NCBI RefSeq assembly: GCF_001854695.1
Contig: NZ_MAXA01000212.1
Span: 42,540 to 76,070, forward strand
Origin: Parafrankia soli
GTDB taxonomy: Bacteria; Actinomycetota; Actinomycetes; Frankiales; Frankiaceae
Direction: 5' to 3'
DNA: 33,531 nt
Positions within the stretch are counted from its first letter, which is position 1, and each line of letters begins with the position of its first letter. This document shows positions 9,701 to 31,059 of this stretch, piece by piece. Both the position numbers and the translations under genes were made by a program. Below the pieces are notes generated by a model. The model ran no database searches. It saw only the letters and a list, made by a program, of their open reading frames with translations, and had not been told where the DNA came from.

Positions 9701-9752
9701 TTCGTCAACTCTAGGTTGACGCTCCGAGGAGCGTCAACCTAGAGTTGACGAA
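9701..9752. promoter_or_regulatory. perfect 25-bp inverted repeat overlapping a start codon
   Basis: Left arm 9701-9725 and right arm 9728-9752 are exact reverse complements separated by GA. The right arm ends on the A of the ATG at 9752. Each arm is itself a smaller palindrome, CGTCAAC-5 nt-GTTGACG, so the element holds two opposed copies of one 19-bp site. It can terminate the exporter operon as a hairpin and also act as an operator for the Clp_N gene. In the transcript it would bury the ribosome-binding region. Confidence 0.8.
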
Positions 9753-10510
9753 TGACGAACCCGAGCCCCGTCCCCATCAGCAACCCCGTCCGCCTCGACG
9801 ACCTCATCGCGGCGATCAAGACGGCGCACTCGGACGCCCTCGACCAGCTCACCGACGCCGTCATGGTCGCCGACCACCTCGGCGAGGTGGCCGACCACCT
9901 CATCGGCCACTTCGTCGACCAGGCCCGCCGCTCCGGCGCATCCTGGACGGAGATCGGCGCCAGCATGGGCGTGACGAAGCAGGCCGCCCAGAAGCGCTTC
10001 GTACCCAAGGGGCCCGGCGAGCCGTCCAGCCTCGACCCGTCACAGGGGTTCGGCCGCTACACCCCGCGGGCCCGCAACAGCATCGTCGCCGCCCAGAACG
10101 AGACCCGGGCGGCGGGCAACGCCGAGATCACCCCCGGCCACCTGATCCTCGGTCTGCTCGCCGACCCGGAGGGCCTCGGCCCGGCCGCCATCGCCGCCCA
10201 GGGTGTCTCCCTCGACGCCGTCCGCCAGGCGGTGACCGCGGCCCTGCCCCCGCGGGTGGACGACCTTCCCGCTCTGATCCCGTTCGACGGGCCGTCCAAG
10301 AAGGCCCTGGAGCTCACCTTCCGGGAGGCGCTGCGGCTGGGGCACAACTACGTCGGCACCGAACACATCCTGCTGGCGCTGCTGGAGCTGGAGGACGGCA
10401 CCGGCCCGCTCACCGCCCTGGGGATCAGCAAGACCGCGGCCGAGACCTACCTCGCCGAGGTCCTCTCCCTGATCACCGGCGGCCAGGACTCCGGTGTGTC
10501 CCCGTCCTGA
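9752..10510 (+). CDS. HTH-Clp_N domain protein
   Basis: A 252-residue protein without an ATPase domain. Residues 64-83 (SWTEIGASMGVTKQ, then AAQKRF) form a convincing helix-turn-helix of sigma-region-4/MerR-like spacing. Residues about 95-170 and 175-245 are two copies of the Clp N-terminal repeat, with PGHLILGLL and VGTEHILLALLE as the matching signatures. Clp_N domains bind substrates or adaptors in ClpA/B/C; here they are coupled to DNA binding instead of to an unfoldase, so a stress-sensing regulator is a plausible reading. The ATG has no Shine-Dalgarno in the usual place because the inverted repeat occupies it; the transcript may be leaderless. The palindromes suggest autoregulation. It is convergent with the kinase operon, 48 nt away. 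Confidence 0.88.
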   Translation: MTNPSPVPISNPVRLDDLIAAIKTAHSDALDQLTDAVMVADHLGEVADHLIGHFVDQARRSGASWTEIGASMGVTKQAAQKRFVPKGPGEPSSLDPSQGFGRYTPRARNSIVAAQNETRAAGNAEITPGHLILGLLADPEGLGPAAIAAQGVSLDAVRQAVTAALPPRVDDLPALIPFDGPSKKALELTFREALRLGHNYVGTEHILLALLELEDGTGPLTALGISKTAAETYLAEVLSLITGGQDSGVSPS

Positions 10511-10558: not shown

Positions 10559-12829
10559 TCACTCGTGAATCGTGGTGATGATCCCGTCGAGGCCGACCCG
10601 TCGGATGGTCGTGCCGGTCTCGTTCACGTACAGGACGCCCGCGGCGTCGACCGTGATGCGGCGGGGAAACCAGAGCCGGGCCTTCGCGGCGGGGCCGCCG
10701 TCGCCGTCCGAGCCGAGCTCGCCGGTGCCGGCGACGGTGGTGATGGTCCCGCCGGGGTCGACCCGCCGCACCCGGTTGCCGAGGGACTCGACGACGTACA
10801 GACCGCCCGCCGGGTCGAACGCGAGGACAGAGGCATCGACGGACAGGCTCAGGGCGGCGGCGGTCGCCGGGCCGCCGTCCCCGCTGTCGCCCTCCCGGCC
10901 GCCGCCGGCCAGGGTGCGCACGGCGCCGTCCGGGCCGAGCACCTGGATCCGGTCGGCGGAGTAGTCGGCGATGTAGACCTGTCCGTCGCGTACCTCCAGG
11001 TCACCGATGTTGGCCGCGACGACGGGCACGTCCTCCTCGCCCTCCGGGGGCGCCTCGGTGGATCCCGGCTCCTGCGTGCGGGCGACGACGTGCAGGATGC
11101 CGTCGCGGTCGACCCGGTAGATCCGGCCCGCGCCGTAGAGGTAGAGGTCGCCGTCCGTGTCGACGGCTATCGGGCCTGAGATGAAGGAGAGCGAGACCTC
11201 GGTTGCCGGCTCGCCCTCCCGGGCGAGGCGCGTCCCGCCACCCACCACCGTCGTGATCACCCCGTCGCGGCCGATCCTCCTGATCTTGCCGTTCGAGTCC
11301 TCGCCGAGATAGACGGTGCCGGCGCCGTCGACCGCGACGGCGTCGAGCCCACGCAGGCGTGCCTGGACGGCGGGGCCCCCGTCACCGTCCGACCCCTGCG
11401 CACCGGTGCCCGCGACGACGGACACCTTCCCGTCCAAACCCAGCCGCAACAGCCGGGTGCCGCCGTCCTCGACGACGTAGAAGCCGCCGGACGGCGCGGC
11501 GGCCCAGGCGGCGATGCTGTCGATCGTCGCGGGCGCGGGAGTCCGCGGCGGGGCGGTCGGGGTGACGGGGACGGCGACCTGGTCGTCGGAGCCCGCACCG
11601 CCGCCGACGAGCACGACCACTCCGGTGACGGCCAGGGCGACCGCGGCCACCCCGGCGGCCACGGCGGCGGTGACGCGCCGCCCGCCCCACCCGGCGGTAC
11701 GCCGGCGCGGGCCGTACGGGGTGCCCTCGAACAGGTTCCGCCCCGGCGGCCCGGAGGCGCCGCCGGAACCCGCGGAGCCCCCCGGACCGGGCCCACCCGG
11801 CGCGACCGGAACCGCCACCGGACCGGACGTCACCGCCAGGTCAGCCGCCCCCGGTGAGCCCGGCGGGCCGGGTTCGCCGGGTGGGCTCACCGGACCGGAG
11901 GGTCCGGGCGGGACGGACCGTCCCGCGGCCGGGGTGAAGCGGCGGACGGTGCCGGTGCCACCGGGCGGATCCGGTGCGTCCGTGGTCTCGGTGCGCCGGA
12001 CGATCAGCCCGCTGCGCGCCAGCCAGTCCGGGCCGAACAGACCGAGGGCCGCCTCCGCCAGGGCGCGGGCCAGCTCGTGCGCGCCGGGCTGGCGGGCGGC
12101 GGGATCCTTGGCCAGCGCACGCAGGATGATGTCGCTCACCACCGGCGGCACGCCGGGCGGCGCGGGCGGGTCGACCTCGCACTGATGGCGCAGCAGCTGC
12201 GCGACCCCCAGCCCGGGGTCGAACATGGGCCGGCCCGCGGCCAGCTCGTAGAGGACGGCGCCGAGCGCGTAGAGGTCCGCGGGCGGCCCGACCGGCGCAC
12301 CGGTGATCTGCTCGGGCGCCATGTACTTCGGGGTACCGACGGCGCGGCTGACCGTACCCGCCCCACCCTCGACGATCTTCCCGATGCCGAAGTCGGTGAG
12401 CTTGGGCTGCCCGGCGTCGGTGAACAGGATGTTGTCCGGCTTGATGTCACGGTGCAGCACGCCATGGGCGTGCGCGTGGGCGAGCGCGTCGGCGACGGCC
12501 ACCCCGACGGCGAGGGCCGCCTCGGCCCGCAGGCGGTGCTGGGCGAGGCTGCCGCCCCCCAACTTCTCCATGATCAGCAGGCACAGGTCGTCCTGGGCGA
12601 CGTAGTCGTAGATGCGGACGATGTGCGGGTGGTCGAGGCGGCTGAGCATCCGCGCCTCGGCCCGGAAGTCGTCCGCGAGCGCCGCCACCAGGATCTTGAT
12701 CGCGACAGGGCGGTCGAGATCCTGGTGGTGCCCGGCGATGACCAGGCCGAACGAGCCCGAGCCGAGCTGGTCGCCGAGGATGTAGCGGGGCAGCGCGTGG
12801 GCGATCCGCGCGCGGTCGACGGCGGGCAC
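10559..12829 (-). CDS. PknD-like Ser/Thr kinase with degenerate NHL propeller (third of three)
   Basis: A 756-residue receptor kinase. The cytoplasmic kinase domain is at 16-275: glycine loop LGSGSFG, Lys45 in VAIKIL, Glu58, HRDIKPDN, DFG, MAPEQ, all catalytic residues intact. A collagen-like Gly/Pro juxtamembrane region (about 285-375) and one membrane helix (about 385-409) follow. The exported C-terminus forms about six NHL-like repeats (IYRVDRDG, VYIADYSADRI, LYVVESLGNRVRRV). Only three repeats keep a GDGGPA turn, and one carries an acidic insert (PPEGEEDV). The GTG at 12829 is chosen by alignment with the other two kinases, whose N-termini read VVDRARVA and VIDRARVA; the ATG at 12940 lies inside the previous gene. 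The start is 8 nt after the preceding stop, so it is translationally coupled. The ligand is unknown. Confidence 0.93.
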   Translation of the reverse strand: MPAVDRARIAHALPRYILGDQLGSGSFGLVIAGHHQDLDRPVAIKILVAALADDFRAEARMLSRLDHPHIVRIYDYVAQDDLCLLIMEKLGGGSLAQHRLRAEAALAVGVAVADALAHAHAHGVLHRDIKPDNILFTDAGQPKLTDFGIGKIVEGGAGTVSRAVGTPKYMAPEQITGAPVGPPADLYALGAVLYELAAGRPMFDPGLGVAQLLRHQCEVDPPAPPGVPPVVSDIILRALAKDPAARQPGAHELARALAEAALGLFGPDWLARSGLIVRRTETTDAPDPPGGTGTVRRFTPAAGRSVPPGPSGPVSPPGEPGPPGSPGAADLAVTSGPVAVPVAPGGPGPGGSAGSGGASGPPGRNLFEGTPYGPRRRTAGWGGRRVTAAVAAGVAAVALAVTGVVVLVGGGAGSDDQVAVPVTPTAPPRTPAPATIDSIAAWAAAPSGGFYVVEDGGTRLLRLGLDGKVSVVAGTGAQGSDGDGGPAVQARLRGLDAVAVDGAGTVYLGEDSNGKIRRIGRDGVITTVVGGGTRLAREGEPATEVSLSFISGPIAVDTDGDLYLYGAGRIYRVDRDGILHVVARTQEPGSTEAPPEGEEDVPVVAANIGDLEVRDGQVYIADYSADRIQVLGPDGAVRTLAGGGREGDSGDGGPATAAALSLSVDASVLAFDPAGGLYVVESLGNRVRRVDPGGTITTVAGTGELGSDGDGGPAAKARLWFPRRITVDAAGVLYVNETGTTIRRVGLDGIITTIHE

Positions 12830-12837
12830 GCCGGACC

Positions 12838-15156
12838 CTAGGCCGCGGTGCCCGCGACCGCGGGCGTCGCAGCTGTCGCGGGCGGGACGGGTCCGGCGGG
12901 CGCCGGGGACGCGCCGGGGGCCGGTGAGGACGTCGGGCACGGCGCGGCGGCGCAGCTGCCCGGCGGGAGGCGTACGGCTCGCACCCGGCTGTCGATACCG
13001 TCGGCGATGTAGAGGTTCCCGAGCTGGTCGAGAGCGAGTCCGCCCGGGTACACCAGCTCGGCGGCGGTCGCCGGGCCGCCGTTGCCGGAGTACTTCGACA
13101 CCCCCGTACCGGCGATCGTGGTGATGGTCCCGTCGGGGGCGATGCGGCGGACCCGGTTGCTCCCCGGGTCGGAGAGGTAGACGTTGCCCGCAGCGTCGAC
13201 GACGAGGTCGGCGCCGACCGCGTTGATCTGCGCCTGGTCGGCCGGGCCGCCGTCACCGGAGTACCCCGTCTTTCCCGTCCCGGCCAGCGTGCTGATCGTC
13301 CCGTCCCCGGCGATGCGGCGCACCCGGTGGTTGTCCTGGTCGGCGACATAGAGGCTGCCGTCGGGGCCGCGGGCCAGCGCGCTCGGATAGCTGAACCGGG
13401 CGGACGTGGCCGGGCCGCCGTCACCGCCGAAGCCCTCCGCGCCGGTGCCCGCGATCGTGGTGATGATCCCGTCCAGGCCGATGCGGCGGACCCGGTTGTT
13501 CTCACCGTCCGCGATCAGCAGACTCCCGTCGGTCTCCATCAGCACGGTGTTGGGGTAGTTGAGCTTCGCGTTCACCGCGGGTAGGCCGTCGCCCGAGTAG
13601 GCCAGGCCGTCCTCGCTCACCTCACCGGCGAAACCGAACTCGTCCTGCCCCGCGATCGTGGTGATGATCCCGTCCCGGCCGATGCGGCGGACCCGGTGGT
13701 TCCGCGTGTCGGCGACGTACAGGGTTCCGTCGGGGGCGACCGCGACACTGGTCGGCTCGTCGAGCTGCGCCTCGGTGGCCGGGCCGCCGTCGCCGGAGAA
13801 GCCGTCCGCCCCGGTGCCGGCGACCGTGGTGATCGTGCCGGCCCGGTCGACGCGGCGGATCCGGTGGTTGTCGGTGTCGGCGACGTAGACGTAGCCGCGC
13901 GGGGCGTCGATGGTCAGATCGCTGGCCCGGTCGAACTCCGCCTGTACGGCGGGACCGCCGTCGCCGGAGAAGCCGTCCGAGCCGGCCCCGAACACGGTGG
14001 TGATCGTGCCCGTGGCCAGCTCCGGCTGCCAGGCCGGCGGCGGCGCGGGCGGCGCCGGGGGCGCGGGCTCGGGCTGGCCCCACACCGCCCAGCCGACCCC
14101 GCCACCGGCGACGAGGGCGAGGAGGACAGCCAGCGCCGTCACCGCGAGCGGCACCCGGCCGCCGGATCCGCCGCCGGCGAGCAGCACCGCGGGCAGCCGG
14201 GAACGCACCCGTCCGGCCGGGCCCGGGCCGCCGGCACCGCGCCACGGATGGTCGTCGGCCCGCGGGGCCCGCCCGAACCTGCGGGTGGTGATCTGGCGGA
14301 CGTCGTCGGCGAGGTGGATCGGGATGCCGGCGCGGTCGAGCCAGTGCCGCCCGAACACGGCGGTGGCGGCGCGGGCCAGATCGATCGCGAACGCCCGGGC
14401 GCTGGGATGGCGGTCCTCGGGCCGCTTGGCCAGGCTGCGCATCAGCACGGCGGCCAGCGGAGCCGGAACCCCCGGCGGCGGGGGCGGGACGACCTCGGTG
14501 TGATGGCGCAGCAGCACCGGCAGCGGCAGCGACGGCGGGGCCAGTGACGCGCCGGTGAACAGCTCGTAGAGGACGACGCCGAGCGCGTACAGGTCGGTGG
14601 CCGGGCTGAGCCGGTCGCCGGTGATCTGCTCGGGGGCCATGTAGCGGGGGGTGCCCACCACCCGGCTCGCCGTCGACGCCGACCCCTCGAACACCTTCGA
14701 GATACCGAAGTCGGTGATCTTCGGCTGGCCGGCGTCGGTGAACAGGATGTTCGCCGGTTTGATGTCGCGGTGCAGCACGCCGTGGGCGTGCGCGTGGGCG
14801 AGCGCGTCGGCGACGGCGAGGCCGACCGCGCAGGCGGCCTCGGGGCGCATCACCCGGTGCGTCAGCGTCCCGCCGGGCAGCATCTCCATCACCAGCAGAC
14901 ACAGGTCACCGCGGGTGACGTAGTCGTAGGTCCGCACGATGTGCGGGTGGTCGAGCCTGCTGAGCAGCCGGGCCTCGGTGCGGAAGTCCGCCGCCGCCTC
15001 GGCCGCTCCGCTGGAGAGCACCTTGACCGCGACCCGCCGGTCGAGCTCCTGGTGGTAGCCGGCGAGGACGAGCCCGAAGGCACCCGACCCCAGCTCACCG
15101 CCGATCCCGTAGCCCGGGAGCGCGGCGGCGACACGCGCGCGGTCGACGACTGGCAC
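12838..15156 (-). CDS. PknD-like Ser/Thr kinase with six NHL repeats (second of three)
   Basis: A 772-residue membrane receptor kinase. The kinase domain spans about 16-275: LGSGAFG loop, Lys45 in VAVKVL, Glu61 in helix C, Asp131 in [11 protein letters not shown] at 149-151, MAPEQ, all intact. A membrane helix lies at about 336-359. The extracellular part from about 385 to 725 has six NHL repeats with the pattern [36 protein letters not shown]. The third repeat carries a longer turn ([17 protein letters not shown]). A Pro/Ala-rich tail with two Cys closes the protein. The GTG at 15156 has an excellent GGAGGGGAG site; the open frame continues to 16443 but that part is antiparallel to nothing native and overlaps the first kinase. 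NHL propellers bind ligands or surface partners and are known as the sensor of mycobacterial PknD. Confidence 0.95.
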
Positions 15157-16250
15157 GGCTCCCCTCCGTCCTGGTCTGGTCGTCCGGTCTGTCGGTTGTC
15201 CGGCTGTCTGGTCCGCTGGTTCTCGTTCCGGCACCGGGACGGCCGGCGGCTCCGGTGCTACCCGGAGCCGGTCAGCTCCACGTGGAGCACCCGGTTGTGC
15301 CGCCGGTCGGCGACGAAGACGTCCCCGGTGGGATCGAGCGCGACCGGCCCATCGGGACTCATCTCGTCCGGGTCGACGGACTCGTCCCGGCCCGGGTGGG
15401 CGGTGCCCGCGACGGTGGTGATGATCCCGGACGGGTCGACCCGCCGGATACGCCGGTTGGTCCGGTCGGTGATGAAGATGGCGCCCCGCGCGTCGACGGC
15501 GACCCCGCGCGGGGAACGCAGCGTGGCGCGGGTAGCCGGCCCGCCGTCGCCGGAATAGCCGGGCAGGCCGGTGCCGGCGACGGTCTCGATCACCCCGTCC
15601 AGCCCGATCCGGCGGATCCGGTTGTTGCCGGAGTCGGCGATGTAGAGCCGGCCGGGACGGTCCATCGCCACACTGATCGGGAACGTCAGCAGGGCGTCGA
15701 CCGCCGGGCCGCCGTCGCCGAACGCGCCCTCGCCGTCCCCGCCGGCCACGGTCTGGATGATCCCGTCGGTGCCGACCCGCCGGATCCGGTTGTTGCCGCT
15801 GTCGGCGATGTAGATGTTGCCGGTCGGGTCGGCCACGACCCCGCCGGGGTACCAGAGGCTGGCCTCGGTCGCGGGGCCGCCGTCGCCGCCGGGCCCGCGG
15901 TCGTCGCCACCGGCCACGGTGGTGATGATCCCGGCCGGGTCGACGCGGCGGATCCGCTGGTTGAACGTGTCCGCGATCAGGATGTTGCCGGTCGAGTCGA
16001 GCGCCACCGCCGCCGGCTGACGCAGCTGCGCCTGGGTGGCGGGCCCGCCGTCGCCGGAGAAGCCCGCCTCGCCGGTCCCGGCGATCGTGGTGATCGTCCC
16101 GTCCGCCGTGATCCGCCGGACCCGGTTGTTGTCGAAGTCGGCGACGTAGATGTTGCCGGCCCAGTCCGCGACCATCCCGAACGGGCCGTTGAGCGCCGCC
16201 GAGCCGGCGGGGCCGCCGTCGCCGGAGAACGCCGCCTCGCCCGTCCCGGC
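12990..16250 (-). repeat. NHL-coding DNA repeats, about 165-175 nt period
   Basis: The propeller regions of the second and first kinases show repeated DNA such as GCCGGGCCGCCGTCGCCGGA at about one blade interval (near 13070, 13240, 13410, 13785, 13950, then 15540, 15700, 15870, 16040, 16215). Each copy encodes the SGDGGPA turn, antisense as printed. The kinase-coding part of the second gene interrupts the series at roughly 14050-15250. The similarity between blades and between genes makes recombination and copy-number change likely. Confidence 0.7.
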
Positions 16251-17819
16251 CACCGTGACCACCGGGTACGGCGGTGGCGGCGGCAGCGGTCCCGGCCGTT
16301 CCGGCGCCGCCGCCGTACCCGGACCACTCAGCGGGCTGGCCGGAGCGGCACCGGTGACCGCCTGCTCGTCGCCGGTGACCCGCGGGACGACCAGCGCGGC
16401 CACGACCGCCAGCACCGCCGCGACCGCGGCGCCGACAATCCACACCCGCCGCCGGGACGCCCGCCGGCCGGCCGGTCCCTCAGGCCCGCCGGGGCCGGCG
16501 CCGGGTGCTCTGCCAGGCGTGGCGCCGGGGGTGGCCCACGGTCCGCCGGGATGGTGGCCGGCAGCCTGGTGGCCGGGGCCGCCACCGGCCGGCTCGCCTG
16601 ACGCCGCAGGCGGGAACGCGCCGGGCGGGCCGACAGGCACGGGCTCCGGAAGCAGGGAGGTCACCGGCGGCAGCGGCGGGTCCAGCCTCGTGGTCCGCCC
16701 CGCCGGATCGTCCTCGGCCCCTGTGCTGGCTCCGGCACCTCCGGGGCCGCAGCCAGGTGTGCCGCCGGTGCCGGTGCCGGTGGCGGTGGCGCCCGGCGGT
16801 CCCAGCGCCGGGTGGGGCCCCGACCCCTGCTCGCGCAGCCCGTCACTGACCGCCAGCGGGACGTCCGCCCGCGCCAGCCAGTCGCCGCCGTACCCCAGCC
16901 GCGCGGCCGCGGCGAGATCCATGGCGAACTGCCCGGCGGTGCGGTGCCGCTCCCCCGGCGCCTTCGCCAGCGCTCTGGCCAGCACCGCCGCCATCGGTGG
17001 CGGAACGCCCGGCGGCGGAGCCGGGACGACCTCGCAGTGATGGCGTAACAGGTCGGGCGCGGTCAGGCCGGCACCGAACAGCGGCGTCCCGACCAGCAGC
17101 TCGTACAGGGTCGCGGCCAGCGCGTAGATGTCCGTCGCGGGCCCCAGGCGGCCCCCGGTCACCTGCTCGGGTGCCATGTACTGGGCGGTTCCGACGACCC
17201 CGCCGGCGGTCAGCGGCGTCCCGTCGACGAGCCCGACCACGCCCAGGTCCGTCAGTTTCGGCCGGCCGTCCGCGGTGAAAAGGATGTTGGCGGGTTTGAC
17301 ATCGCGGTGCAGGACGCCGGCGGCGTGGGCATGCATCAGCGCGTCGGCGGCGGCGAGCACGACCGCGCACGCGGCCTGCGGGGTCAGGCTCTGGCTGGCC
17401 AGCGTCCCGCCGGGCAGCAGTTCGGTCACCAGCAGCCGCAGCCCGTCGGCGGGGACGATGTCGAGCAGCTGGCACAGGTGTGGATGATCGAGCTGGGTGA
17501 GGATCCGGGCGTCCTGGTCACCGTCCGGGGCCGGCGGCGGACCGGCACCGGGATCCGACCCGAGCACGACGGTGCCCGCGGACGCCCCGCTGGGGCCGTC
17601 ACCGTCGGCCACGCCCAGGTCGAGGATCTTGACGGCCACGTCCGTTGCGGCGCCGTCGCCCGCCGCGTCGCCTCCCGCCTGGTCCAGGCCAGGCGCGCCG
17701 GGGCCGGGTGCGAGTCGACGCCCGGCGATCACCAGACCGAACGCGCCCGCGCCCAGCTCGCGGCCGAGCACGTACCCCGGCAGTGCCGTGGCCACCCGAG
17801 CCCGGTCGATGACCGACAC
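15258..17819 (-). CDS. atypical PknD-like kinase with six NHL repeats (first of three)
   Basis: An 853-residue protein, first of the operon. The kinase fold is clear (LGAGAFG, Lys64 in VAVKIL, HRDVKPAN at 171-178, MAPEQ), but three features depart from its siblings. An insert of about 25 residues splits beta-2 and beta-3, and another of about 35 follows the Lys. The helix-C Glu is replaced by Asp103 in DQDARIL. DFG reads DLG (191-193). Activity may be reduced or regulated differently. A Pro/Gly-rich linker runs from 330 to 455, a membrane helix lies at 459-480, and six NHL repeats fill 519-853 with well-kept [14 protein letters not shown] and NIYIADSGNNRIRRV elements. The GTG at 17819 has AGGAGG about 8 nt upstream. 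A 101-nt gap separates it from the second kinase, so a shared transcript is likely. Confidence 0.93.
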   Translation of the reverse strand: MSVIDRARVATALPGYVLGRELGAGAFGLVIAGRRLAPGPGAPGLDQAGGDAAGDGAATDVAVKILDLGVADGDGPSGASAGTVVLGSDPGAGPPPAPDGDQDARILTQLDHPHLCQLLDIVPADGLRLLVTELLPGGTLASQSLTPQAACAVVLAAADALMHAHAAGVLHRDVKPANILFTADGRPKLTDLGVVGLVDGTPLTAGGVVGTAQYMAPEQVTGGRLGPATDIYALAATLYELLVGTPLFGAGLTAPDLLRHHCEVVPAPPPGVPPPMAAVLARALAKAPGERHRTAGQFAMDLAAAARLGYGGDWLARADVPLAVSDGLREQGSGPHPALGPPGATATGTGTGGTPGCGPGGAGASTGAEDDPAGRTTRLDPPLPPVTSLLPEPVPVGPPGAFPPAASGEPAGGGPGHQAAGHHPGGPWATPGATPGRAPGAGPGGPEGPAGRRASRRRVWIVGAAVAAVLAVVAALVVPRVTGDEQAVTGAAPASPLSGPGTAAAPERPGPLPPPPPYPVVTVAGTGEAAFSGDGGPAGSAALNGPFGMVADWAGNIYVADFDNNRVRRITADGTITTIAGTGEAGFSGDGGPATQAQLRQPAAVALDSTGNILIADTFNQRIRRVDPAGIITTVAGGDDRGPGGDGGPATEASLWYPGGVVADPTGNIYIADSGNNRIRRVGTDGIIQTVAGGDGEGAFGDGGPAVDALLTFPISVAMDRPGRLYIADSGNNRIRRIGLDGVIETVAGTGLPGYSGDGGPATRATLRSPRGVAVDARGAIFITDRTNRRIRRVDPSGIITTVAGTAHPGRDESVDPDEMSPDGPVALDPTGDVFVADRRHNRVLHVELTGSG

Positions 17820-18726
17820 AGACCGACCTCCTGGTCGCCGCCCCGCGGAACGATGGTGCGCGAGACACGCCCGCTATCACCATCCGTGCCCCTTTTCGGG
17901 CACCCCTAGAGTGCCGGATGGTAGCAAAGCGCGATCGGTCCCGGTCCGGCAGTGATACGCCCACCCGGGCCCTAACACGACCGACGCATGACCGGCTTCG
18001 ACCCCACCGCAGCACTCTGACCTGCGGTAACGCAGCGAACGAGATGCCCGGCGGCTGCGGCACCCGCCCCGACTCGCCGGACCGACCGGTACCCGCTGAC
18101 GGCTATCCGACAACGAGGCCAGGAGCCGGCCTCCGGCGCGGGCGGCCCTCACGCCGTAGTGGACGACCCTGACACCCGGCGCCGTCCCATCAACGAGATC
18201 TGCCTGGTCCGGGACGACTTCCTCGTCGCGGACCTGTGTCACGCCGACCTCGAAGGCGCCTGGCTGGAAGGCGTGCAGGGGACCACATCCACGTGCTGAC
18301 CCGACATCGCCCTGCCAGACATCGACCCGGGTCACCCCAGCCAATCCCCTGTACGCCCCCGATGTCATTCATGGCTGGCGCGACGACAATCGCACTCCGT
18401 GACGTCATCACTGGTGGAGGTGCGAAAACCATTTTCGCATATGTTCGCGGTGAGCTCGTCGCGCCATCCATTCCCGACGGAGATCAAATACCTCTCAGTA
18501 GAACAGCAAGATCATCAGTCGGAGGCGCAGGCCGTCAACGGCGTTGACTATCTTGGGTTTGGGATGGCGGGCCACGTTCGAGGGGCGGGACCGGGCATAG
18601 GGACGCCCGGCACCCGGAGGAGACACTTCGACGACCGGGCCTTCGCGGCGCCCGGCTGGTTGTGGTTGCTGGTGGCGTTGGCGCGATCGGGTTCGGTTCG
18701 GCGCCTGACCAGATAGGTTGCTGCGC
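17820..18726. other. 907-bp region without a convincing gene
   Basis: It lies between the kinase operon and the carbonic anhydrase. GTGCCC-6 nt-GGGCAC at 17886-17903, 67 nt upstream of the first kinase, may be a regulatory palindrome. GCGAAAA-3 nt-TTTTCGC at 18422-18438 is another perfect short inverted repeat. A 46-codon frame at 18159-18299 (GTG start) has plausible codon use and a short ADLCHADLEGAWLEG stretch recalling pentapeptide repeats; it may be a gene remnant. A 105-codon frame at 18399-18716 ends just before the carbonic anhydrase but has no recognisable content. I see no RNA gene. The region looks like decayed coding sequence. Confidence 0.5.
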
Positions 18727-19368
18727 GTGCCCGATTTCAATCTCGCTGCTTCCTCGCCCGCTGAGGCGTTCGCGGTTCTGAGGGAAGGCAACGCGCGCTT
18801 CGTGCGCGGTGAACGGCTGCACCCGAACCAGGATGCTGACCGTCGATCGGCTGTGGCGCCGAGACAGCATCCGTTCGCCGTGCTGTTCGGATGTTCTGAT
18901 TCCCGCCTGGCAGCTGAGATCATCTTCGACCGGGGGTTGGGGGATCTCTTCGTGGTGAGGACCGCCGGTCACGTCGCCGGGCCTGAGGTTCTGGGCAGCA
19001 TCGAGTACGGCGTCAGCGTGCTCGGCGCGCCACTCGTCGTCGTTCTCGGCCACGATTCGTGTGGCGCTGTCACCGCGGCGTCCGAGGCAGATCGTGACGG
19101 GACCGCGCCTGCGGGCTATCTCGGGGACGTGGTCGAGCGGGTGATGCCGAGTGTGTTGTCGGCGCGGGCGGCCGGACACACTGACATCGACGCGTTCGTG
19201 CGCACGCATATCCGGCGGACGGTCGACGGCCTGGTCGGCCGGTCAGTCCTGCTCGCGGCCGAGGTCGCCGCAGGACGATGTGCGGTAGTCGGTCTGTCCT
19301 ACCGGCTCGCTGAGGGCACCGTCGGCGTTGTCACCAGCCACGGGCCTGTACCCGCAGCCACCCGATGA
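18727..19368 (+). CDS. beta-class carbonic anhydrase
   Basis: A 213-residue zinc enzyme interconverting CO2 and bicarbonate, cytoplasmic. Zinc ligands are Cys56 in GCSDSR and His109/Cys112 in GHDSCGAV; the Asp58-Arg60 dyad is present. The flanking motifs DLFVVRTAG and SIEYGVSVLGAPLVVVLGH are standard for the bacterial beta class. Length is normal. The GTG at 18727 is preferred (VPDFNLAAS); a TTG at 18718 is the alternative, and neither has a strong ribosome site. It stands alone, with gene-poor DNA on both sides; its link to surrounding genes is not evident. Confidence 0.95.
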   Translation: MPDFNLAASSPAEAFAVLREGNARFVRGERLHPNQDADRRSAVAPRQHPFAVLFGCSDSRLAAEIIFDRGLGDLFVVRTAGHVAGPEVLGSIEYGVSVLGAPLVVVLGHDSCGAVTAASEADRDGTAPAGYLGDVVERVMPSVLSARAAGHTDIDAFVRTHIRRTVDGLVGRSVLLAAEVAAGRCAVVGLSYRLAEGTVGVVTSHGPVPAATR

Positions 19369-19579
19369 CCTGCGCCGGCGCCCACCGGCTGCCTCACTGT
19401 GGACCACACCGGCGACCGGCCTCGCCGAGTCGCGGCCCTACCTGTCAAGATGGTTCGAGCCAGGGATGTCGGTACATGCCTCACCAGAACCTACCTCGAT
19501 GATTGATGGATCGTACGGGGCCCGCACTCACGGCTCTATCCACTAAAGCGCGAGACCGTCCTTTAGCCGCCCAGATTCC
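19369..19579. other. intergenic spacer after carbonic anhydrase
   Basis: A 211-bp stretch with no supported gene. GC content begins to drop toward its right end, marking the left edge of the lower-GC patch that extends to about 21.25 kb. No tRNA-like cloverleaf or attachment-site repeat was recognised. Confidence 0.4.
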
Positions 19580-20038
19580 CTACCCGTGTCCGTAGTAGTT
19601 TGCTCGCTTGTCCACCAAGAGGCGAACGACCGATTCGGCGATCGATAACGAAGGGTCCTTTCGAAGGCTCCGATATTCATCCAGGCGTAGAGTTTTACCA
19701 TTCTTGAGCGATAGAACGGAAATTCGCCAGGGAAGAACTTCGCCCGCATCGACGATGGAGGTGGAATTTATTTCGGACCAGGAGAATTTCCTGGTGTTTT
19801 GGATTCTTCGAAGTGAAATCCCCACATCTCCCACCACGATTCGAAGGCGAATTAGTCTCACAATCAAGAGGGTGCTCAGTGTCGCTATAGCTCCGCTGAA
19901 GATGCGGCCACCTACGCCTCCCACCTCGTCAGCGGAAACTACCAGTCCGCTTAGGCCGATCACTCCAAAGGCCATTGCTGGCACTGTCATCGCCCAACTA
20001 TAGAGGCGGGGTCGCAGTACTATCCCGTCAGCAGCCAT
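19580..20038 (-). CDS. small membrane protein with PH-like domain
   Basis: A 152-residue protein with two hydrophobic helices at about 12-33 (WAMTVPAMAFGVIGLSGLVV) and 45-62 (IFSGAIATLSTLLIVRLI), then a soluble part of about 85 residues whose beta-rich pattern (VVGDVGISLRRIQNTRKFSW, DEYRSLRKD) resembles bacterial PH domains. Such proteins sit at the membrane; their roles are mostly unknown. The ATG at 20038 has GAAGGA about 9 nt upstream; the frame is open to 20119. Codon use is less GC-biased than in the neighbouring genes, suggesting transfer. The neighbourhood is insertion-sequence debris. PH-like is a fold-level judgement only. Confidence 0.6.
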   Translation of the reverse strand: MAADGIVLRPRLYSWAMTVPAMAFGVIGLSGLVVSADEVGGVGGRIFSGAIATLSTLLIVRLIRLRIVVGDVGISLRRIQNTRKFSWSEINSTSIVDAGEVLPWRISVLSLKNGKTLRLDEYRSLRKDPSLSIAESVVRLLVDKRANYYGHG

Positions 20039-20225
20039 AGCAGCATTCCTTCGATCAGGGTGCGTAGTAGCGACGGTCCCGCCACCGAGCGAAACCACTG
20101 GTAAAATTTGCGGCCCCACTCAGTCCGCCTCCCGCTTTCAGAATCCCTTCGTATGCCGGCAGAGGATGGGGAGTAGGGCAGGCCGAAGCGGTCGGCGCGC
20201 CTATTTCGTAAAGTGCTATTCTTCC

Positions 20226-20665
20226 ATGGATAACGTCGCCTTATGGACCCTCGCCGACAAAACATCACCCGCTCTCACCGAAAATCTAATCGCCGCCACC
20301 CGAGACAAATGGACGCACCGAGACCGCGTCGTCAAGGCCACCGAGGCCCGCGCCGGCCTCGACCTCCCCCACGCCGTCCAGGCCGTCCAGATCACCCGCC
20401 GACGGCGGCCCCACACCGGCGGACCCGAGAGGACGACCTCGCCCGCGGCCACTGGACCATCGAGAACCAGTTGCACTGGATCCGCGACGTCGCCTTCGAC
20501 GAGGACGACCACCGCGCCAGCACCGGCAACGCCCCTCAGGTCATGGCCAGCCTCCGCAACCTGACGATCAGCATCCTGCGCCTGACCGGCGCCACCAACA
20601 TCGCCCAGGCACCATGCCCCCACGCCCGCCAACTCGAACGACCACTTCAGGCAATCATGAAACCT
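20226..20665 (+). pseudogene. ISAs1-family transposase remnant
   Basis: Two frames together give the C-terminal half of an ISAs1 (H-repeat-type) DDE transposase. The first frame has VVKATEARAGLDLPHAVQAV and QITRRRR to about 20410. The second frame continues with DLARGHWTIENQLHW, IRDVAFDEDDHRAS and GNAPQVMASLRNLTISILRL, then TGATNIAQA and ARQLERPLQAIM. Compared with the family, the segment between RRRR and LARGHW is shortened and the frame changes there, so there is an internal deletion plus frameshift. The N-terminal half with the first catalytic Asp is missing. Not functional. Confidence 0.8.
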
Positions 20666-20830
20666 GAATTACTAGCCCGCAGCCTTGCCGGAGCCCTGCC
20701 CCCGGCCGGCACGGTGCTCCTCAGCATTGATGAGAGAACCGGGATCAGGCGAAGACCCGCAGATCCTGCTGCCACCCGACCGCGGCGCACGCCAGGAGTC
20801 CGAGTACGGACGAAAAAGATCCGTTCAACC
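20658..20830 (+). pseudogene. probable IS630-type transposase fragment
   Basis: Directly after the ISAs1 remnant, the frame reads LPPAGTVLLSIDERTGIRRR, which resembles the second catalytic-Asp block of IS630-like transposases (DEKTGIQAR). A following stretch matches the expected RRARREFEY region only if the frame is shifted (RGARQESEYGR). About 50 codons remain. Assignment rests on a short motif and is tentative. Confidence 0.42.
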
Positions 20831-20852
20831 AGATTCCCATTCAACAGCGATC

Positions 20853-21059
20853 TCAAGATCCTGAAAACCACTCTTCTATCCGGCGTTCATTCTCGGCCCA
20901 AATATCCCAACCCTCACCCGGGTCACCCGGCGGATTCTCCGAGACGTAGATATGCCAACCAGCTCCGGTCCTGTCTTTTTCTATGTAGATATAACGGCCA
21001 CCATACTCTCCGACTACAACCCTTCCAGCCACACCCGTTCGCCACAATGGAATCGACAC
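20853..21059 (-). CDS. small acidic protein, possible immunity protein
   Basis: A 68-residue protein with a GTG start at 21059 and a clear GAGGAG ribosome site 5 nt upstream. It has the composition of a small folded domain: aromatic and acidic, with GGRYIYIEKD, GWHIYVSENPPGD, and GWDIWAENERRIEEWFSG. There is no signal peptide or membrane helix. It starts 17 nt after the stop of a truncated ORF on the same strand, a spacing typical of toxin-immunity pairs in which a small acidic protein follows the toxin tail. I do not recognise a named family. The immunity role is inferred from size, acidity, composition and position. Confidence 0.6.
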   Translation of the reverse strand: MSIPLWRTGVAGRVVVGEYGGRYIYIEKDRTGAGWHIYVSENPPGDPGEGWDIWAENERRIEEWFSGS

Positions 21060-21076
21060 AGAAACTCCTCGTCTCC

Positions 21077-21247
21077 CTACTGTAGATCCGAGCCAGGGTC
21101 GAATCCGAAGATGACCGTTGTGACGCCACCTTCCACTCGACTTCCCGCGTCGCTCAAAATTACTCCAGACTCCGCCGTACGGGTTCCTCGCAGGACTCCT
21201 GTTACGAAGGCCCTATACGCCGTGACCGCGCCCCTGCCACTGAGATA
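21077..21247 (-). pseudogene. truncated ORF tail upstream of the small acidic protein
   Basis: About 55 codons (GRGAVTAYRAFVTGVL, then SGVILSDAGSRVEGG, ending FGFDPGSDLQ) with no native start. The 5' part of the open frame beyond 21247 is antisense to an unrelated coiled-coil-like fragment on the plus strand (LQRLYQENARLHRALLRR), so a recombination junction is inferred near 21247. Its stop at 21077 is 17 nt from the next start. It may be the C-terminal end of a large polymorphic-type toxin, but the family is not recognised. Confidence 0.33.
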
Positions 21248-21380
21248 AAGGAGGCAGCAGGCTGAACTACAACGGCTGTACCAGGAGAACGCCCGCCTGC
21301 ATAGAGCGCTGCTGCGGCGGGGAGACACCGCTCCCGCGCCGAGGCCCTCCACGTCGTGCCGGCCGGCGGCCGGCGGCGGT

Positions 21381-29973: not shown

Positions 29974-31059
29974 TCAGGAACCGGCTGGTGGCAGGGCGTT
30001 CAGCAGCGGGGCGAGGACGTCCCCGGCCCGGCGGATCGCGGTGTCGTCGGCGTCGAGGTGGGTGACGATCCGGATCGTCGTCGGACCGGCCAGGCCGACG
30101 AGCACACCGCCGTCCGCCGCCTGCGCGCAGAAGGCGGCCGCGTCCGGGACGTCGACGAGCACCATGTTGGTCTCGGTGCGCTCCGGGTGGACCCGCCGCG
30201 GTGCCGCGTCGGCGAGGGTCGCGGCCAGCGCGGCGGCGTGGCGGTGGTCGTCGGCGAGGCGGTCGAGGTGGTGCCGCAGCGCGTACAGGCCGGCGGCGGC
30301 GAGCACCCCGGCCTGGCGCATCCCGCCGCCGAGCCGCTTGCGCCACTCGCGGGCCCGCTCGACGTGCTCGGCGCCGCCGACGACGAGGGAGCCGACCGGG
30401 GCGCCGAGGCCCTTCGAGAGGCAGACCGACAGCGTCCCGAAGATCTCGCCGAGGCGGCGCGGCGGGACGTCGAGCGCCACCGCCGCGTTCCAGAGGCGGG
30501 CGCCGTCGCAGTGCAGGACCACCCCGGCATCCTCGGTGATCAGCCGCAGCCGGTCGAGCCGCTCCAGGGGCCACACCCGACCACCGGCCCGGGCCCGGGT
30601 GTTCTCCACCGCGAGCACGCTCGTCCGGACCATGTTGTAGTTGTGCGCGACCGGGAACGCGCGCAGCTGGGCCGCGATGTCGGCCGGGTCGAGCGTGTCT
30701 GCGAGGCCGCTGAGGGTCCGGGTCTGCACGCCGCCGAGGGCGGCGAGCCCGCCGAGCTCGTAGGTGACGATGTGCGCGTCGGTGTCGGCGACGACCTCGG
30801 TGCCCACCGGGGCGCCGGCGCGCAGGGCACAGAAGTTGCCCATGGTGCCGCTCGGCACGAACAGCGCGGCCTCGTGCCCGAGCAGCGCGGCGGCCTGCTC
30901 CTCGAGCTCGCGGACGGTCGGGTCCTCGCGGTAGACGTCGTCGCCGACCTCCGCCTCCGCCATCGCGCGGCGCATGCCGGGCGTGGGCCGGGTGACGGTG
31001 TCGCTGCGCAGGTCGACGGGCAGGCCGGCGGGCCGTGTTCGCGGGGGCTGGACGCTCAC
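29974..31059 (-). CDS. ltaE: low-specificity L-threonine aldolase
   Basis: A 361-residue PLP enzyme of fold type I that cleaves L-threonine/allo-threonine to glycine and acetaldehyde. The PLP Lys is K216 in CLSKGLGAPVG. HCDGARLWN (Asp185) holds the cofactor ring, and DLRSDTVTRPTPGMR is the N-terminal signature. Length is normal. The GTG at 31059 lies directly against a GGGAGG, so spacing is poor; no better start is seen because DLRSDTV must be kept. The gene stands alone, 73 nt downstream of the cupredoxin stop on the same strand. A related beta-eliminating lyase activity is possible, but the motif set favours threonine aldolase. Confidence 0.93.
   Translation of the reverse strand: MSVQPPRTRPAGLPVDLRSDTVTRPTPGMRRAMAEAEVGDDVYREDPTVRELEEQAAALLGHEAALFVPSGTMGNFCALRAGAPVGTEVVADTDAHIVTYELGGLAALGGVQTRTLSGLADTLDPADIAAQLRAFPVAHNYNMVRTSVLAVENTRARAGGRVWPLERLDRLRLITEDAGVVLHCDGARLWNAAVALDVPPRRLGEIFGTLSVCLSKGLGAPVGSLVVGGAEHVERAREWRKRLGGGMRQAGVLAAAGLYALRHHLDRLADDHRHAAALAATLADAAPRRVHPERTETNMVLVDVPDAAAFCAQAADGGVLVGLAGPTTIRIVTHLDADDTAIRRAGDVLAPLLNALPPAGS

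Follow-up and report, generated by a model that had tools for sequence, protein, structure and literature searches.

A conserved trio of tandem NHL-propeller receptor kinases in Frankiaceae, one with an eroding kinase domain

We identified three consecutive receptor kinase genes (K1, K2 and K3) in a stretch of 33,531 nucleotides from Parafrankia soli (Frankiaceae, genus g1), which is called the window in its entirety below. The trio is a real, old and conserved unit and is more structured than the original prediction had described, since it combines one eroding with two intact receptor kinases. With a probability of about one half, we read it as a three-paralogue receptor set in which the K1 of genera g1 and g6 serves as a pseudokinase-like co-receptor beside active K2 and K3.

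The three genes lie head to tail on the minus strand, and each starts with GTG. Open reading frames, Pfam matches and transmembrane (TM) segments bear out the tandem kinase-TM-NHL genes first proposed from the letters, including the gaps of 101 and 8 nt. The same gene order is seen again in 15 loci, so the layout is more than chance. The features of the trio in window coordinates are as follows.

15258..17819, minus strand: K1, receptor with eroded kinase domain, TM segment and NHL propeller, 853 aa (Pfam, kinase alignment, hydropathy)
17827..17832, minus strand: K1 Shine-Dalgarno sequence AGGAGG (read directly)
16875..17819, minus strand: K1 kinase-like domain (alignment of 43 trio kinases)
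16386..16442, minus strand: K1 transmembrane segment (hydropathy 2.78; five K/R before, one after)
15261..16262, minus strand: K1 NHL propeller, six repeats (Pfam, structure model, Foldseek)
15157..15257, minus strand: K1-K2 intergenic region, 101 nt, holding the K2 Shine-Dalgarno sequence GGAGGGG (15161-15167)
12838..15156, minus strand: K2, receptor kinase with intact catalytic motifs, TM segment and NHL propeller, 772 aa
14338..15156, minus strand: K2 kinase domain, the best conserved of the three
14092..14148, minus strand: K2 transmembrane segment (hydropathy/charge)
12964..14010, minus strand: K2 NHL propeller, six repeats (Pfam and repeats)
12830..12837, minus strand: K2-K3 gap, 8 nt
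10559..12829, minus strand: K3, receptor kinase with intact catalytic motifs, TM segment and fast-evolving propeller, 756 aa
12020..12829, minus strand: K3 kinase domain (Pfam, kinase alignment)
11606..11662, minus strand: K3 transmembrane segment (hydropathy/charge)
10562..11524, minus strand: K3 NHL-type propeller, six blades in the model (Pfam TEN_NHL, AlphaFold2 model, Foldseek)

The features of PknD-type architecture, namely an N-terminal Hanks kinase, a single TM segment and an NHL propeller ectodomain, are present in all three proteins. Pfam Pkinase matches have E values of 2e-29 (K1), 1e-48 (K2) and 3e-47 (K3), and each protein has one hydrophobic TM segment whose kinase-proximal flank is positively charged. 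K1 and K2 give strong NHL/TEN_NHL matches; the K3 propeller matches TEN_NHL at 77.9 bits, and the short NHL model at 19.4, just below the cut-off of 20. The six blades were counted from repeats in K1 and K2 and from the model in K3. AlphaFold2 models of the K1 and K3 ectodomains (mean pLDDT 89.9 and 89.8) both match NHL propellers in Foldseek, and the top solved match is 9ifo, a bacterial teneurin-like protein with 53% identity to K1 and 38% to K3.

Reports of NHL kinases go back to 2005, for M. tuberculosis and Deinococcus (PMC1262709). M. tuberculosis PknD (Mbk) has the same order of kinase, TM segment and extracellular six-bladed NHL propeller (PMC1262709, PMC3601408), and by architecture the trio is grouped with PknD-type receptors. 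However, here three paralogues stand in a row, one of them with an eroded kinase, and they belong to a different kinase subfamily that is confined to Frankiaceae at the threshold used (E 1e-65): at this value the K2 kinase subfamily was found in 13/13 family genomes sampled and in 0/135 others of the class.

The trio is likely one operon, judging from the shared strand, the short gaps and a scan of the trio in which no promoter- or terminator-like match was found, although sigma-70 scans are weak at 73% G+C and this last result is therefore uninformative. Between K1 and K2, loci of g1 and g6 have 52-192 nt (mostly 77-133) and those of g5 have 13-42 nt. The K2-K3 gap is 8-18 nt in g1 and g6 (11 nt in genome G005, where the K3 start was set by the conserved start) and 34 or -1 nt in g5.

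The genes occur in order at 15 loci in 14/35 Frankiaceae genomes, spread over all six genomes of g1, 3/13 of g5 and 5/8 of g6 (one genome, G050, carries the trio twice). The trio is thus conserved as a unit across related genomes of three genera rather than being confined to a single strain. It was not found in g2, g3, g4 and g7 among the 35 family genomes searched. Contig ends cut 4/15 trio loci, and some absences may reflect draft assemblies. The trio is not essential to the family: other receptors suffice in 8/13 genomes of the g6, g5 and g2 style without it. Because the neighbouring genes differ between g1, g5 and g6 and none is common to the genera, the unit is the trio alone. We also looked for a conserved partner gene from which the pathway could be named and rejected the idea, as a Clp_N-domain gene and an ABC-2 transporter are present downstream only in part of g1. 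In the window, the Clp_N-domain gene (9752-10510) converges on K3 and adjoins an ABC-2 transporter pair; it also lies beside the trio in genomes G003, G004 and G005.

Several other features of the surroundings were observed. In three congeners the genes that immediately follow the trio appear by eye to encode secreted repeat proteins of RCC1 type (...ARAWGxNxxGQLGNG...; L073 10905-12125, L074 6301-7488 and L076 4290-6937), which could be ligands or partners. Upstream of K1, positions 17900-21300 of the window have a G+C content of 0.62-0.66 compared to about 0.73 and carry neither genes with a coding pattern nor clear Pfam matches. In four congeners K1 is adjoined by a gene beginning MCRLLGLTSAP..., which we take to be class II amidotransferase-like, and by a threonine-aldolase-like gene (Beta_elim_lyase). 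The aldolase-like gene of the window lies at 29974-31059, 12 kb from K1, indicating that some 11 kb have been inserted or rearranged upstream of K1. The second of the two trios in G050 (Frankia sp. AgB1.9; L124 and L125) has HRG for HRD in K1 and long branches throughout.

The trio arose locally. The 43 trio kinases group together in the kinase tree as a single clade (100/96) that excludes the pair locus described below and NHL-less relatives; this argues against independent origins of the three genes. The propellers sort by position in a quick tree with SH-aLRT supports only: those of position 1, of position 2 and of position 3 make up separate clades, each spanning g1, g5 and g6 (99, 99 and 93). 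None of these positional groupings is rejected by the kinase data (p-AU 0.80 for position 1, 0.49 for position 2 and 0.75 for position 3), and for positions 1 and 3 the trees constrained to them score above the free tree. One kinase clade together with positional propeller clades indicates a local triplication that predates g1, g5 and g6. The original prediction had based the triplication on shared N-termini (xVDRARVA). This motif does not serve as proof, as kinases without an NHL domain in the same genome (C114, C180 and C289) carry it too; it is a hallmark of the subfamily.

Nor are NHL kinases single in this family, as they had been supposed normally to be: a second tandem set, a pair, is conserved in it. 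This pair (L093 5610-10690, on G000:C224) consists of two catalytically intact NHL kinases, is present in g1, g2, g5 and g6, and forms two clades of its own. The 8.03 Mb genome of the window has 71 Pkinase matches, and its NHL kinases comprise the trio, the tandem pair on C224, one gene on C169 and a fragment on C91.

As expected, the three NHL kinases are paralogues. They are not equivalent, however, as the catalytic centre of K1 is degenerate in g1 and g6. Catalytic motifs were compared in the aligned kinase domains of the 43 trio kinases and the pair kinases, with 11 readable K1 copies in g1 and g6 and two in g5. They are intact in 15/15 copies each of K2 and K3 and in both g5 copies of K1. 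In the K1 of g1 and g6 the Phe of DFG is lost in 11/11 copies (DLG or DVG) and the alphaC Glu in 10/11, compared to 0/74 and 1/74 of the other trio and pair kinases. The beta3 Lys, the HRD Asp or the DFG Asp is lost in 5/11, versus 0/74 of the others (Fisher 1e-5; the rows are not independent): the beta3 Lys is replaced by Arg in 3/11 and the catalytic Asp by Gly in 2/11. Two further copies have lost the HRD Arg (HLD, HAD) and keep the catalytic Asp. The DFG Asp is kept in all K1 copies and the beta3 Lys in 8/11.

The lesions differ from lineage to lineage, as would be expected if catalysis were no longer required of K1. Assembly or sequencing error was rejected as their source, given that they recur in separate species and the frames are open. 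No complete K1 copy has a frameshift or truncation, and the K1 gene is present in every trio. The orthologues in g5 are intact, so a dead K1 is not a requirement of the trio.

In the K1 of the window, the alphaC Glu is replaced by Asp and DFG by DLG, and inserts between beta2 and beta3 and between beta3 and alphaC enlarge the N-lobe. DLG by itself is no proof of lost catalysis. Because the beta3 Lys, the HRD Asp and the DFG Asp are all retained, this protein may still bind ATP or be active. Retention of these residues, like the intact K1 of g5, speaks for an alternative in which the genes encode three independent PknD-type neighbours, each homodimeric with its own ligand, K1 is fast-evolving but active, and the cluster is kept only by operon inheritance. 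We consider this unlikely, as nearly half of the g1 and g6 copies are without an essential catalytic residue and yet the gene has been kept in every trio.

Pairwise Nei-Gojobori dN/dS in g1 and g6, which is biased in G+C-rich codons, is 0.05-0.28 for the K2 kinase, the strongest constraint of the three, 0.13-0.42 for the kinase-like domain of K1 and 0.14-0.48 for the K3 kinase. Purifying selection on K1 at a level like that on the K3 kinase would suit independent receptors, as would the divergence of the three propellers into separate clades. The divergence of K1 is nevertheless concentrated in its ATP-binding N-lobe: within g1, N-lobe and C-lobe identities are 62/82% in K1, 89/88% in K2 and 79/77% in K3. 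The K1 C-lobe retains 82-83% identity within genera, equal to or above that of K3, and between genera its alphaF-alphaG region shows the same degree of conservation as that of the active kinases. A relaxed N-lobe and a constrained C-lobe fit a domain that may be kept for docking rather than for catalysis.

The constraint on the C-lobe and on alphaF-alphaG also argues against plain decay of the K1 kinase domain, whereby K1 would take no part in signalling and only its membrane-anchored propeller would matter, as a surface adhesin or a decoy. Motif losses that vary among lineages are compatible with decay, and so is the K1 propeller, which is the better conserved ectodomain (93-95% between genomes G000 and G003). 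However, open frames in every complete copy and the dN/dS of the kinase-like domain make this explanation improbable.

In the co-receptor reading that we prefer, three single-pass receptors of PknD architecture arose by local triplication before g1, g5 and g6 split, and they are probably co-transcribed. From K2 and K3 we expect Ser/Thr kinase activity, with signalling set off when a ligand promotes the pairing of their kinase domains. For PknD and PknB it is established that the kinase is activated by dimerisation through the N-lobe and that front-to-front contacts are used to phosphorylate the activation loop (PMC3601408). In the K1 of g1 and g6, erosion affects the ATP-binding N-lobe and the catalytic motifs, while purifying selection still acts on the fold, the C-lobe and the ectodomain; catalytic erosion with a retained fold and ectodomain means that the job for which K1 is kept is most likely non-catalytic. 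Its ectodomain would bind an extracellular ligand or surface partner, and its C-lobe would dock K2, K3 or both as an allosteric partner or a phosphorylated scaffold. Both the loss of K1 activity and its contact with K2 or K3 are what we infer from these patterns.

Precedents exist for both roles. MviN is a phosphorylated bacterial pseudokinase partner in a complex (PMC3601408, PMC12599244), and HER3 is an impaired receptor that activates a paralogue (EGFR) through its C-lobe (PMC13259870). Like K1, HER3 belongs to a small group of paralogous receptors in which it is the impaired one, and it retains its C-lobe (PMC13259870). In contrast, it belongs to a tyrosine kinase family and has an unrelated ectodomain; the analogy is one of working only. 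A stronger version of the co-receptor reading, in which a dead-kinase NHL receptor detects the ligand and thereby turns on its two active paralogues from the same operon in a HER3/HER2-like complex, with the step from active to dead visible among genera (g5 intact, g1 and g6 eroded), is tentative, and we consider it rather doubtful.

Seven families are distinguished in a 2025 review of bacterial pseudokinases, in which neither NHL repeats nor propellers come up (PMC12599244). MviN (ActPs3), ActPs2 and the DYD pseudokinases resemble K1 in being actinobacterial and membrane-linked and in having lost the beta3 Lys and/or the alphaC Glu, and ActPs2 shares the insert between beta3 and alphaC (PMC12599244). 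Unlike them, K1 has the DFG Asp in every copy and the beta3 Lys in most, bears an NHL ectodomain, adjoins two intact paralogues and nests within a clade of intact kinases. Assignment to the DYD family (DYD motif, beta3 Arg, no alphaC Glu; PMC12599244) was rejected, as DLG or DVG is found in 11/11 copies and beta3 Arg in three. Assignment to ActPs2 (beta3 Arg, HRN, DFG deletion, 250-residue activation-loop insert; PMC12599244) was likewise rejected: HRD is mostly kept, DxG is kept and there is no such insert.

The K3 propeller is the fastest part of the trio: its dN/dS is 0.27-0.77, 60-codon windows come near 1, and dS is raised. The 9ifo protein, from Bacillus inaquosorum (PMC13018210), shares the TEN_NHL propeller sequence family with K1. 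However, K1 lacks the YD shell and FN plug and is fused to a kinase instead. Propellers of the K1 sequence type occur widely in other phyla, where no kinase is attached; a pattern scan of contigs returned mostly NHL proteins of other phyla, with a kinase fusion in 1/80, the Frankia sp. AgB1.9 locus. It is quite improbable that the trio is a cell-cell recognition set, whose propellers bind one another or their counterparts on neighbouring hyphae, with K3 giving specificity and the kinases reporting contact: among solved structures the teneurin-like NHL domain comes closest to the K1 propeller, animal teneurins are adhesion receptors and the K3 ectodomain evolves fast, but propellers of this type are common as secreted domains in many phyla, which makes the teneurin match unspecific, and the raised dS of the K3 propeller means that recombination may contribute.

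To our knowledge, the kinases of Frankia-family bacteria, relatives of plant-associated hyphal bacteria, have no known ligands. A search of the open-access literature gave no paper that treats NHL receptor pseudokinases or the NHL-repeat kinases of Frankia, and bacterial pseudokinases are largely uncharacterised (PMC12599244). The erosion of the first receptor's kinase suggests a bacterial counterpart of animal receptors that use a catalytically dead partner. The trio provides a natural series, in which the same receptor is intact in one genus (g5) and eroded in two (g1 and g6), always beside two intact paralogues. This series opens to direct testing both how a receptor pseudokinase originates and whether receptor kinases of bacteria assemble into mixed complexes.
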